A stretch of 36,342 nt of DNA. It comes from an uncultured bacterium. Lineage in GTDB: Bacteria > Bacillota_I > Bacilli_A > RFN20 > CAG-826. The stretch spans positions 1-36,342 of the forward strand of contig CASGAD010000036.1 in NCBI GenBank assembly GCA_949299335.1. Direction: 5' to 3'. The notes beneath the pieces were generated by a model that ran no database searches, was not told the origin of the DNA, and saw nothing but the letters and a program-made list of their open reading frames with translations. A program made the position numbers and the translations under genes. This document shows, piece after piece, positions 30,321 to 34,980 of the stretch (positions within the stretch are counted from its first letter, which is position 1; each line of letters begins with the position of its first letter).

Positions 30321-30866
30321 TTATTTTATCTTATTTATATATAGAGTATAAATTTGAGCAGCAATTTTATTTAAAGATGTTTCATTACTATTATTGTCGA
30401 TAATGTAATCAACATCTTTTTTTGATTCAGCAAAATATTTGTCATCGTTATGAATACGCTTTAAAATTTCTTCTTCTTTGTCTTTTCTTTCAACCATTCT
30501 TTTATATCTAGTTTCTTTGGATGCGTCTATATAGAAAGAAACAATATTTTTATCGTTCAATTTTAAAAATTCTTTTAATCCTTTAGGCTCTAAAATAAGA
30601 ACTTTGTTATCATCAATTTCTTCTAAAGTAGTTCCATAATAGTTGTCATTATAAAAAACATATTCAATAAATTTTTTATTTGAAATTTTATTATTAAAAT
30701 CATTTATTGAAATAAAATGATAATCCATATCATTGATTTCGTTTAATCTAGGGGATCTTGTAGTTGTGGTTACGAACTTTTTAAACCCATAGTCTTTAAT
30801 TAAAATTTTAGCAATTTCTGTTTTGCCACTTGCGCTAGGACCAATAAGAATAATCATAGCTAACAT
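30321..30866 (-). CDS. Guanylate kinase-like P-loop kinase
   Basis: 181 residues. Walker A is GPSASGKT (9-16). VTTTTRSPRLNEINDMDYHF corresponds to the GMP-binding stretch of guanylate kinases (TTRxPRxxExxGxDYxF), and EYVFYNDNYYGTT to the ExxxxxGxxYGT block. Asn replaces the usual Gly before D-Y, and the GPSGVGKxT loop is altered, so it may be a divergent guanylate kinase or a paralogue with another substrate. It abuts the CorC gene tail to tail. No Shine-Dalgarno sequence is seen; TATGAT (complement of 30870-30875) lies three bases before the first ATG and 12 before a second at 30857, so a leaderless or near-leaderless mRNA is likely and the exact start is uncertain. Confidence 0.75.
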   Translation of the reverse strand: MLAMIILIGPSASGKTEIAKILIKDYGFKKFVTTTTRSPRLNEINDMDYHFISINDFNNKISNKKFIEYVFYNDNYYGTTLEEIDDNKVLILEPKGLKEFLKLNDKNIVSFYIDASKETRYKRMVERKDKEEEILKRIHNDDKYFAESKKDVDYIIDNNSNETSLNKIAAQIYTLYINKIK

Positions 30867-30933
30867 TTTATCATATACAAAAATAAAAAAATATTTTTTG
30901 AAAACGGAAAAATTATTTTTCTTAATTTGTTGT

Positions 30934-31062
30934 ACTAGTGAAAGCCAATCAAAGACTAGTTGGCGAAATTAGGAAAGGAGGTGTCCTAAGTGTTACATAG
31001 TCTTATTCTCCCCCTTTTATTTAGCTTTTTAAATGATAAGGCTATGTAACACAAATGCTTTT
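30934..31062 (+). promoter_or_regulatory. Highly structured 5' leader of the pilus operon
   Basis: Three adjoining structures. (1) ACTAGT at 30934-30939 can pair with 30955-30960, or alternatively GCCAA 30944-30948 with TTGGC 30960-30964; the two are mutually exclusive. (2) TTAGGA 30969-30974 pairs with TCCTAA 30984-30989, presenting the Shine-Dalgarno sequence AAGGAGGTG in the nine-base loop. (3) Directly after, a 17-base inverted repeat (30990-31006 with 31036-31052, one G-U pair, 29-base loop). The ATG at 31063 follows ten bases later. If (3) folds, the Shine-Dalgarno is brought close to that ATG. It matches no riboswitch class I can recognise. Confidence 0.6.
30990..31049 (+). CDS. Putative leader peptide, 19 residues
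   Basis: A GTG codon stands eight bases after the perfect AAAGGAGGTG and opens a 19-codon frame (MLHSLILPLLF...) ending in TAA at 31047-31049, fourteen bases before the ATG of the next gene. The peptide is hydrophobic. Its codons cover both arms of the 17-base inverted repeat, so translating ribosomes would melt it and could couple into the downstream gene. The alternative is that the frame is accidental and the Shine-Dalgarno serves the ATG at 31063 across the folded hairpin. Confidence 0.35.
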   Translation: MLHSLILPLLFSFLNDKAM

Positions 31063-32163
31063 ATGAAATTAAGCTGTTTATTTAGACTATTTTTATTAAT
31101 CCCAGGTAGTTTATTTATTAATAAGGTTAGTGAAGTAGAAATTAACGTTCCTTATTATAGCTATGAAAATAAATTAGATGAATATACTTGTGACCATCAA
31201 TTTCATTATCAAGATCCACCTTATGGTAGAATCTTAGATTTTACTATTGATTTAAAAAAATTCGAAGGTTTAGAGTATGGAAAAATTTATATCCCGTTTA
31301 TCCGTCATTATAATGATGGAAATATTAATTATAAAATGAAAATAGTTAACGATAGTGAAACTACTATTGTTGGAGAAGGGGTAAATAAACCTACTGATTA
31401 TAACTACCATGGTGAATTTTCGATTGGATTTAATCTTCCTTTGAATAAATTAGGGATGAAAAGTGAAGTTATTTTTGAAACTTGGCAAGATGGAGCTATA
31501 AATAGAGATTTTATTTCCTTTTATTTAACGACTCCTAATTTTATTTATCCTACTGAGCAATATGCTTTGATATATTCTTATGTTGTTTTTGAAGATGATA
31601 TTTTACATAACTATGAAGAAAGGTTTGAATTTATTAATTTACCTAAAGAGCTATATATTAAAAACTATTTTAAGATGTATAGCGATTATTTATACCTTAA
31701 GTATGGTGTCTATAACAATAATCAAAAATTTCAACAAGCCTTTTTACTTTTTATTGATGAACCAGGTTACTTAAAAAAGTCATTTAATGAATATAGCCAA
31801 TTCCCAGATTATTATGGAATGAACTTAGATTATTTTGATAGCACCCCAATTGAAGGAGTAATGCGTTTATTTTATCAAAAAGCGCTTTATTTAGATTTAG
31901 AAACTCTAATGATGAGTACAAATAAAAATGATTTTAAGAACTATGTTGCTGTTAGAGATTTATTCTTTCCAATAAATAAATTTGATGAGTATCGATATTT
32001 TCCAATGCGATTATATATCAAAAATGCCGGAAGAAGTTCAACTGATATTGTCTATGATTTTTTAGTTATTTTTGGTGATGAACACATTCAAGAAACATTA
32101 GATGTATCTAGAGGAAATCCAATAAAAGAATTCACTCCTTATATGGAGGAAGTAATAATATGA
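31063..32163 (+). CDS. Secreted or membrane-anchored protein of the pilus operon, unknown
   Basis: 366 residues from the ATG at 31063. A basic residue and a hydrophobic stretch (KLSCLFRLFLLIPGSLFI) form a signal peptide or anchor; the rest is soluble, rich in Tyr, Phe, Asn and Asp and probably beta-rich. No family is recognised. An in-frame ATG at 31033 would add ten residues, but lies within the inverted repeat and lacks a ribosome site. The stop overlaps the following gene, so it belongs to the pilus operon. It could be a tip adhesin or an assembly factor; this is inferred from position only. Confidence 0.6.
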   Translation: MKLSCLFRLFLLIPGSLFINKVSEVEINVPYYSYENKLDEYTCDHQFHYQDPPYGRILDFTIDLKKFEGLEYGKIYIPFIRHYNDGNINYKMKIVNDSETTIVGEGVNKPTDYNYHGEFSIGFNLPLNKLGMKSEVIFETWQDGAINRDFISFYLTTPNFIYPTEQYALIYSYVVFEDDILHNYEERFEFINLPKELYIKNYFKMYSDYLYLKYGVYNNNQKFQQAFLLFIDEPGYLKKSFNEYSQFPDYYGMNLDYFDSTPIEGVMRLFYQKALYLDLETLMMSTNKNDFKNYVAVRDLFFPINKFDEYRYFPMRLYIKNAGRSSTDIVYDFLVIFGDEHIQETLDVSRGNPIKEFTPYMEEVII

Positions 32164-32570
32164 TGAGTGCAATTTTATTCTTTTCCTTAACAACGATGAT
32201 GACAATAACCTCAGTTTCGATGTTTTCAATTAACGGAAATTTTATAAGAAGGACTTTTTATGAAATGTCACCCGATGTTGTTTCAAGTGCAGTATTTTTA
32301 GTATCAACTAATGGTCTTTATGATCCTCATTTTAATAAAGAAAAGTTAGAGGAAAATGTAAATTATTATTTGAAATTAAATTTAAAAAATATAGTTAGTA
32401 AGTATCAAATTGGATTTGTGTATATAGAAGAAAAAAACGGCAATTACTATATCGATTATGGTAGATACCCGAAAATTGTAGATATAACTTTTAAATGCAA
32501 ATATAACAAAATATTTGATTTTAGCGGGGTTATTAATTTTAAAGCAAGTGGAGTATATAATGGAAAATGA
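32160..32570 (+). CDS. TadE-like pseudopilin (tentative)
   Basis: 136 residues with one N-terminal hydrophobic helix (SAILFFSLTTMMTITSVSMFSI) and a soluble C-terminal part, the plan of TadE/TadF minor pilins. It has no family motif beyond that. GGAGG lies before the ATG; it overlaps the previous stop by four bases and the cpaF start by eleven. Its place directly before the ATPase supports a role in the pilus. Confidence 0.55.
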   Translation: MMSAILFFSLTTMMTITSVSMFSINGNFIRRTFYEMSPDVVSSAVFLVSTNGLYDPHFNKEKLEENVNYYLKLNLKNIVSKYQIGFVYIEEKNGNYYIDYGRYPKIVDITFKCKYNKIFDFSGVINFKASGVYNGK

Positions 32571-33609
32571 AAAATTAATAGAATATATAGAGCAAAGCAT
32601 TTTAAAAGATTTATTAAAAGAAGAGAATGTTACAGATATCTCATATAACGGAGAGACTATTTATTATAAGGACAACTTAAAAGGAAGGTTAAAAAGTGAT
32701 TTAGTGATATCTAAAGTTGATGCATATAACTTTTTAAGACAAATCTCTAATTTAACCGACTCTTTATTTAGTTATAAAGATCCTATTTTGGATGTTAGCG
32801 TAGGTAGATATAGAATAAATGCTACTCATTATTCAATAAGTAGAAAAAATAGAGAAAAAGCAGTTACCTTTTCAATAAGAATTGGATATGAACAATTGCG
32901 CATTCATGATGGTGATGGATTTATACATAAAAAAGCTTTAAAGCTAGTTGAATTTGCTATTAAAGCTAAAAATTCAATAATAATAAGTGGTAAAACAGGA
33001 GTTGGTAAGACTGAATTTCAAAAATATATTTTAAGTAAACTTGAACCATTCTCTCGCTTAGTTACTATTGATAATATTAATGAATTAGAGACTGACTATT
33101 TCGTTAAAGATATAGACAGTGTAACTTGGCTATCTTTAAGTAATGGTAATGGATTAGACATGAATATCTTAATTAAAAACGCCTTAAGAAGCACTCCAGA
33201 TTGGATTATAGTCGGTGAAGTAAGAGGTAAAGAGATGCTTACTTTATTAAATAGTGCTATGAGTGGACATCCAACAATTACAACACTCCATTCAAAAAAT
33301 GGTGAAAATACATATAAAAGAATGACACGTATGGCTATGATTGGTAATGAGTCTTTAATTTATGAAGAAACGTTAGATGATATTTATGACCATTTTAAAT
33401 TAGTTGTTCATTTAAAGTCTTATTATGATTTGAATAAGAAAAAATATGTTCGTTATGTTGATTCGATAGGAACTAATAACAAAGGAAGTTACCTTGAATT
33501 ATATAAATATCCAAATAAATTTACTAAGTTGCCACTTAATTTTAAAGAGGAATTTGAACTAGGTAATGAAGAATACTCATCCTATAATTCGGAGATTAAG
33601 AAAGAATGA
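32560..33609 (+). CDS. cpaF: CpaF/TadA-type secretion ATPase
   Basis: 349 residues, the cytoplasmic motor of Tad (type IVc) pili, a member of the type II/IV secretion ATPase superfamily. Walker A SGKTGVGKT (143-151), Asp box DNINELE (171-177), Walker B WIIVGEVRG (215-223), His box HPTITTLHS (237-245). The N-terminal domain is short compared with typical TadA. The ATG at 32560 is used: GGAG lies eight bases upstream, and an earlier in-frame start at 32515 would extend into the preceding gene without a site. The stop overlaps tadB by four bases. Confidence 0.88.
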   Translation: MENEKLIEYIEQSILKDLLKEENVTDISYNGETIYYKDNLKGRLKSDLVISKVDAYNFLRQISNLTDSLFSYKDPILDVSVGRYRINATHYSISRKNREKAVTFSIRIGYEQLRIHDGDGFIHKKALKLVEFAIKAKNSIIISGKTGVGKTEFQKYILSKLEPFSRLVTIDNINELETDYFVKDIDSVTWLSLSNGNGLDMNILIKNALRSTPDWIIVGEVRGKEMLTLLNSAMSGHPTITTLHSKNGENTYKRMTRMAMIGNESLIYEETLDDIYDHFKLVVHLKSYYDLNKKKYVRYVDSIGTNNKGSYLELYKYPNKFTKLPLNFKEEFELGNEEYSSYNSEIKKE

Positions 33610-34388: not shown

Positions 34389-34980
34389 TATTCTAGGAAT
34401 ATCATTAGCAATTTTAGTTTATTTTTTTACCAGAAATTTGCTGTTTTTAGGCACAGGAATTTGTCTAGCTTTTGTCTTAATAACGTTATTTTTTAAAAAA
34501 TACGACATTTTAGAAGAAAGGAGGAGAATTAATCTTGAGCTAGAATTTATAGAAGTGTTTTCGTATTTAAGAATTTATTTATCAAATAGTGAAAATGTTT
34601 ATCGAGCTTTATTGCAGGCTAGTGAATATACGTCTAATGAAATGAAAAATGAAATAAGTAAATTCATCAAATCTATTGACAATGATAAAACCATCATGCC
34701 GTTTATAGAATTTAGCAAGTTATTTAAAAACAAAGTGATTGAAGAAGTCATGATTTCTTTATACCAAATGATCGATGGAGGATTTACTGGATACTATTTA
34801 ACGCAGTTTATATCTTTATTTGATAACTTTAAATCAAGGTATCTCAATGAAGATTTAACTAAAAGATATAAAAAGATGGATTTATTTACAACCTTCTCGT
34901 TATTTGGAGGAGCATACATCATGTTTATCATTTTAATTTTAATTATAAATGTTATTGGAGGAGTGATTAGTGGCTTCTAA
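34312..34980 (+). CDS. TadC-like pilus platform protein
   Basis: 222 residues: two hydrophobic helices (about 20-57), a T2SSF-like cytoplasmic domain (LEFIEVFSYLRIYLSNSENVYRALLQAS ... SLYQMIDGGFTGYYLTQFI) and a C-terminal helix (TFSLFGGAYIMFIILILIINVI). This is the partner of the TadB-like protein in the membrane platform. AAAGGAG lies nine bases before the ATG, inside the tadB-like gene. The stop overlaps the next GTG start by eleven bases. Confidence 0.7.
   Translation: MKKIKQRVENLGLDLRKEITLLTIVSILGISLAILVYFFTRNLLFLGTGICLAFVLITLFFKKYDILEERRRINLELEFIEVFSYLRIYLSNSENVYRALLQASEYTSNEMKNEISKFIKSIDNDKTIMPFIEFSKLFKNKVIEEVMISLYQMIDGGFTGYYLTQFISLFDNFKSRYLNEDLTKRYKKMDLFTTFSLFGGAYIMFIILILIINVIGGVISGF

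Follow-up and report, generated by a model that had tools for sequence, protein, structure and literature searches.

How might a ribosome initiate at a gene whose Shine-Dalgarno (SD) sequence lies far 5' of the start codon? The question is raised by a leader of about 121 nt on contig CASGAD010000036.1 of an uncultured bacterium (assembly GCA_949299335.1; 1.42 Mb, low GC, 98% complete). The whole stretch of DNA analyzed, 36,342 nt long, is called the window here; coordinates are positions in it, and features lie on its forward strand unless stated otherwise. Downstream of the leader is an operon of six genes, one of which encodes a CpaF/TadA/VirB11-like ATPase; the first start codon of the operon is the ATG at 31063. 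An extended SD, GAAAGGAGGTG, is located at 30973–30983, with its GGAGG ending 81 nt 5' of the ATG, and a 17-bp inverted-repeat hairpin (30990–31052) lies between the two. An earlier reading made from the letters of the window (hereafter, the sequence-only reading) compared this layout with that of phage T4 gene 38 and proposed an RNA switch, a thermometer or a translation-coupling device. We find that the leader is real, selected and lineage-specific, and that it is not a demonstrated switch. The likeliest reading, at somewhat less than even odds, is that it is a further form of the split ribosome-binding sites already known.

Conserved elements of the leader

Pairing of GAAAGGAGGTG with the standard 3' end of 16S rRNA is worth -19.6 kcal/mol. 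The 16S 3' end was not found in the source assembly or in that of the sister species described below; the end CACCTCCTTTCT is seen in G018 and G017 of the genus. The source ATG at 31063 lacks a nearby SD (+1.3 kcal/mol), unlike most other genes of the operon, which have strong SDs. The arms of the hairpin, GTGTTACATAGTCTTAT (30990–31006) and ATAAGGCTATGTAACAC (31036–31052), pair with one G-U, and its loop starts with TCTCCCCCT. The hairpin alone folds with a z score of -6.9, and the whole leader with a shuffle-based z score of -3.2 to -3.5. The stem thus folds as the sequence-only reading described it, in letters, pairing and coordinates, and the leader does have more structure than the others in the window: it is the most stable of 30, at -37.4 kcal/mol vs. 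at best -32.4 kcal/mol. The stem is also the longest of the window (18 pairs counting wobble). Set against the AT-rich window as a whole, this length is unexceptional: in 25 shuffles of the window the longest stems had 13–19 pairs. Among 400 shuffled versions of the 121-nt leader, however, no stem reached 15 pairs.

The first round of the search for related leaders covered 144 genomes, and 25 genomes of the genus besides the source were searched. In both sets the leader is present in one genome only, that of G014, a sister species recorded as uncultured Bacilli bacterium. Its first operon protein is 64–65% identical to that of the source, and its CpaF-like protein 81%. A scan of genome contigs returned only the same G014 contig, and the leader was not found in viral contigs. 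A covariance model built from the two leaders gave nothing credible beyond the source and G014 when run over 224 family genomes and an order-wide sample of 279. Its weak matches, which lie at unrelated genes and have neither the SD nor the repeat, were rejected as homologues.

The two leaders share the SD, the large stem and a small 5' hairpin. In the first gene, the two species agree at 44% of fourfold-degenerate sites, so that unconstrained bases are near saturation. Against this background the SD core GAAAGGAGG is identical at 9 of 9 positions, and the 5' arm of the 17-bp hairpin at 15 of 15. The chance of such identity in the arm is 5e-6 at the 44% rate, or 1e-4 if the 54% identity of third positions is used instead. 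The core of the 3' arm is identical at 12 of 13 positions, the single change turning a U-G pair into U-A. The loop differs in length and letters except for TCCCCCT, and the hairpin measures 63 nt in the source and about 75 nt in G014. Pairing of the G014 SD with the 16S end is worth -16.3 kcal/mol.

The 5'-proximal hairpin, GCCAAT/GTTGGC (30944–30964), is ACCAAC/GTTGGT in G014. All six pairs are kept (100% of cells paired), with one compensatory change (G-C to A-U) and one of U-G to C-G. In the covariation test on the homologous leaders, as the sequence-only reading had proposed, this compensatory pair is the one double change, and 264 of 500 shuffles equal the observed value. The test has no power with two sequences, and the case therefore rests on conserved position, stem and letters.

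Other proposed elements fare less well. The 6-bp stem said to hold the SD in its loop is exact in sequence (TTAGGA at 30969–30974, AAGGAGGTG in the loop, TCCTAA at 30984–30989), as is the placement of the ATG, but this hairpin (30969–30989) is of ordinary stability (z = -0.97, with 30 of 200 shuffles equally stable) and four of its six pairs are broken in G014, the only homologous leader. It is probably incidental. Two mutually exclusive hairpins were also proposed just upstream, of which the second, GCCAAT/GTTGGC, is the conserved one just described; the first, ACTAGT/ACTAGT, is absent in G014. The 5' arm of the ACTAGT stem overlaps the likely -10 box. If that promoter placement is right, the stem is probably not transcribed as such, its first arm being promoter and not RNA. 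On the same two grounds we rejected an H-type pseudoknot in which the ACTAGT and GCCAA stems would combine.

A proposed hairpin-interrupted ribosome-binding site

The region upstream of the CpaF-like gene was compared in 19 further members of the genus, and the start could be read in 16. All 16 have an SD 2–8 nt from the ATG, at -8 kcal/mol or better in 15, and none of their leaders has a stem of more than 12 pairs. The search among relatives thus gave a divided answer: one sister keeps the large stem, the 5' hairpin and the SD, but the 16 readable relatives do not have the arrangement. On this sampling, the split arrangement appears confined to two sister species and derived. The comparison with T4 gene 38 gains strength from the relatives, whose ATG is directly adjoined by the same strong SD; the source ATG at 31063 has none.

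Split ribosome-binding sites are described for two phage T4 genes (PMC3014915) and for E. coli thrS (PMC3858243; PMC3936740). A hairpin shortens the SD-AUG distance from 22 nt to 5 in T4 gene 38 and from 27 nt to 11 in gene 25, and the gene 25 site is a derived state limited to close relatives (PMC3014915). The present leader resembles both in having an SD and a start codon that are too far apart on the strand, with a hairpin between them, and resembles gene 25 in being a derived arrangement found in close relatives only. It differs in that the hairpin is much larger and belongs to a chromosomal pilus-like operon. The spacing also differs. Folding shortens the gap from 81 to 18 nt in the source, so that the claim of a folded stem bringing the SD next to the ATG holds for the shortening but not for adjacency. 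The residual 18 nt are the same in both species, although divided as 8 + 10 in the source and 6 + 12 in G014.

The mechanism that we infer from these two sequences is as follows. The 30S subunit would anchor on the very strong SD, the folded hairpin would be accommodated on the outside of the subunit, and the ribosome would reach the start codon over the 18-nt residual spacer. In the source, the start may be reached via an ATG at 31055, which a folded hairpin would leave 10 nt from the SD. This ATG opens a three-codon mini-open reading frame, ATG CTT TTA TGA (31055–31066), whose stop overlaps the ATG at 31063 (ATGA); it is found in the source only, G014 having no such mini-frame. Translation of the pilus-like operon would then depend on the state of the hairpin.

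We consider a derived, hairpin-interrupted site to have somewhat less than an even chance of being correct. In its favor are the complete identity of the SD core and of the 5' arm despite the divergence at fourfold sites, the loss from the source ATG of the adjoining SD seen in the 16 relatives, the equal residual spacing in the two species, and the precedents in T4 and thrS. Several points weigh against it. The residual spacing is longer than in T4 (5 and 11 nt), and G014 has a modest SD at its ATG (AAAGGA, -6.1 kcal/mol) that would make the distant one redundant. The comparison is of only two sequences, and a mere spacer leaves the constraint on the arm sequence unexplained.

The last point suggests a further function. 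The letters of the arms are unchanged beyond what pairing demands, and specific recognition of the hairpin is for this reason probable. Neither a spacer nor a stabilizer would explain them, which suggests that something reads the sequence. The thrS leader offers an analogy. There the 30S subunit accommodates a hairpin, and the repressor, threonyl-tRNA synthetase, binds it (PMC3858243; PMC3936740). The sequence of the hairpin matters in thrS and probably does so here too, where the hairpin is probably also recognized by something. The likeness has limits: the thrS SD is beside the AUG and the upstream half of the site is a U-rich single strand, whereas the present SD lies beyond the hairpin; and the thrS hairpin has a known partner, whereas that of the present one is putative. 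That a putative regulator reads the arms sequence-specifically, making the hairpin, which would permanently separate the strong SD from its start codon, an adjustable ribosome bridge that controls a Tad-like surface apparatus, is an unlikely elaboration of this idea.

The 16 congeneric species with a normal site and the two with a split one provide a natural before-and-after comparison of how a split site arises. It also bears on how far across a structured gap an extreme SD can carry a ribosome.

Competing explanations

The most serious alternative is an mRNA stabilizer of the stabilizing-SD (STAB-SD) type, in which a hairpin stands at the very 5' end and a distant, non-initiating SD binds a 30S subunit and stops RNase J, with the large hairpin as a further barrier or insulator. 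The precedent is cry3A, whose STAB-SD initiates no translation and is placed close to the 5' end of a leader of 129 nt (PMC4113751). As in cry3A, the SD of the present leader is far from the start codon, and it would lie close to the predicted 5' end of a long leader. It is exceptionally complementary to the 16S end, and the 5' hairpin, with its compensatory pair, is at the expected end of the transcript, an end that is itself placed by prediction. No start codon is within reach of the distant SD in G014, although a GTG is 8 nt from it in the source. The long residual gap and the second SD of G014 keep this explanation alive. It is nevertheless doubtful. A STAB-SD is expected to precede a coding gene with an SD of its own; G014 has one at its ATG, but the source ATG is left without any, in contrast to its counterparts in the 16 relatives and to most genes in the rest of the operon. 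The leader also differs from that of cry3A in having a conserved hairpin 3' of the distant SD. The stabilizer also leaves unexplained the constraint on the arms and the fact that the SD of the relatives is the initiating one.

A sequence-specific operator would account for that constraint more directly. The inverted repeat would be read, as RNA or DNA, by a dedicated regulator, and the ribosome site would merely be blocked. The identity of the arms, well beyond pairing needs when set against the fourfold sites, is in line with this. Equivalent positions of the arms are 44 bp apart in the source and 54 bp in G014. The difference, about one helical turn, would fit a protein that binds DNA and touches both arms. 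Arm copies elsewhere in the source or G014 genome do not exceed the control level, however, so there is no regulon, and whatever might read the arm would serve this operon alone. No regulator gene was recognized next to the operon, and the loop and stem fold strongly as RNA. An operator alone is therefore improbable. The inverted repeat is single-copy, and a mobile element was rejected on this basis. An intrinsic terminator or attenuator was rejected as well: no terminator-like site is present on either strand, and the 3' flank of the stem is CAAATGCTTTT.

Translation of a leader peptide followed by reinitiation is less likely still. A possible leader reading frame (30990–31049) starts at the GTG at 30990, 8 nt past the SD, an ideal spacing, and runs for 19 codons through the hairpin to a TAA in the 3' arm (31047–31049), from which ribosomes would reinitiate at 31063. 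G014, however, has no start codon at the matching place, and conserved arms with a divergent loop form a non-coding pattern.

The C-rich loop raises the question of pairing with the SD. Staphylococcal regulatory RNAs expose UCCCCC in hairpin loops and can in principle pair with SD sequences. The present loop also has UCCCCC, but it would act in cis, and its pairing with the SD is imperfect. Sequestration of the SD by the CCCCC loop was rejected, with an A-C mismatch in both species and pairing no better than that of shuffled loops. As a separate observation, a CCCCCC tract in G006, G020 and G017 (loci L069, L073 and L075, respectively) lies just 5' of this operon's promoter-like motif. A riboswitch that senses a ligand, or a thermometer, with folds that exclude each other is very improbable. 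The strong structure of the leader speaks for such a device, and weak pairing of the C-tract with the SD could contribute to it. Against it, the alternative hairpins are not conserved, that pairing does not exceed the shuffled control, warming is unlikely to open the 17-bp stem (about -21 kcal/mol), the leader is absent from the 279 order-sampled genomes except the source and G014, and it matches no Rfam family (the window gives three tRNAs only, and the best leader matches are far below the gathering cut-offs).

Promoter region and neighboring genes

A promoter-like motif, TTGTACTAGTG, is located at 30930–30940 and is probably the -10 region. It is identical at 16 of 18 positions in G014, and its counterparts in relatives are TTGTATAGTG, TTGTATTAGTG and TTATATAAGTG. 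About half of the readable relatives have a motif of the TTGTA..AGTG type directly 5' of the SD. This placement suggests that transcription starts at about 30941–30946, 5' of the small hairpin. A scan for the sigma-70 consensus at a 9-of-12 threshold found no site.

The sequence GAAAGGAGGNG is found only twice in each of the source and G014 genomes, in the leader and in a conserved coding stretch of a tadC-like gene. The second copy, GAAAGGAGGAG at 34516–34526 in the window, is inside the coding sequence in both species and encodes E-R-R-R. Its likeness to the SD is probably a coincidence.

The first gene of the operon (31063–32163) encodes 366 amino acids with a signal-peptide-like N-terminus, and its start is conserved in G014. 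It has no Pfam or NCBIfam match and evolves fast, being recognizable in 8 of the 26 genomes of the genus vs. 24 with a match to the CpaF-like protein. The CpaF/TadA/VirB11-like secretion ATPase (32515–33609) matches Pfam T2SSE at 4e-23. Its matches to the NCBIfam VirB11 and TadA families are below cut-off, and solved CpaF and VirB11 structures are among its relatives. A divergent guanylate-kinase-like gene is on the reverse strand at 30321–30866 (Pfam, 3.5e-27; below the NCBIfam guanylate kinase cut-off), and it holds its position beside the operon in several relatives.
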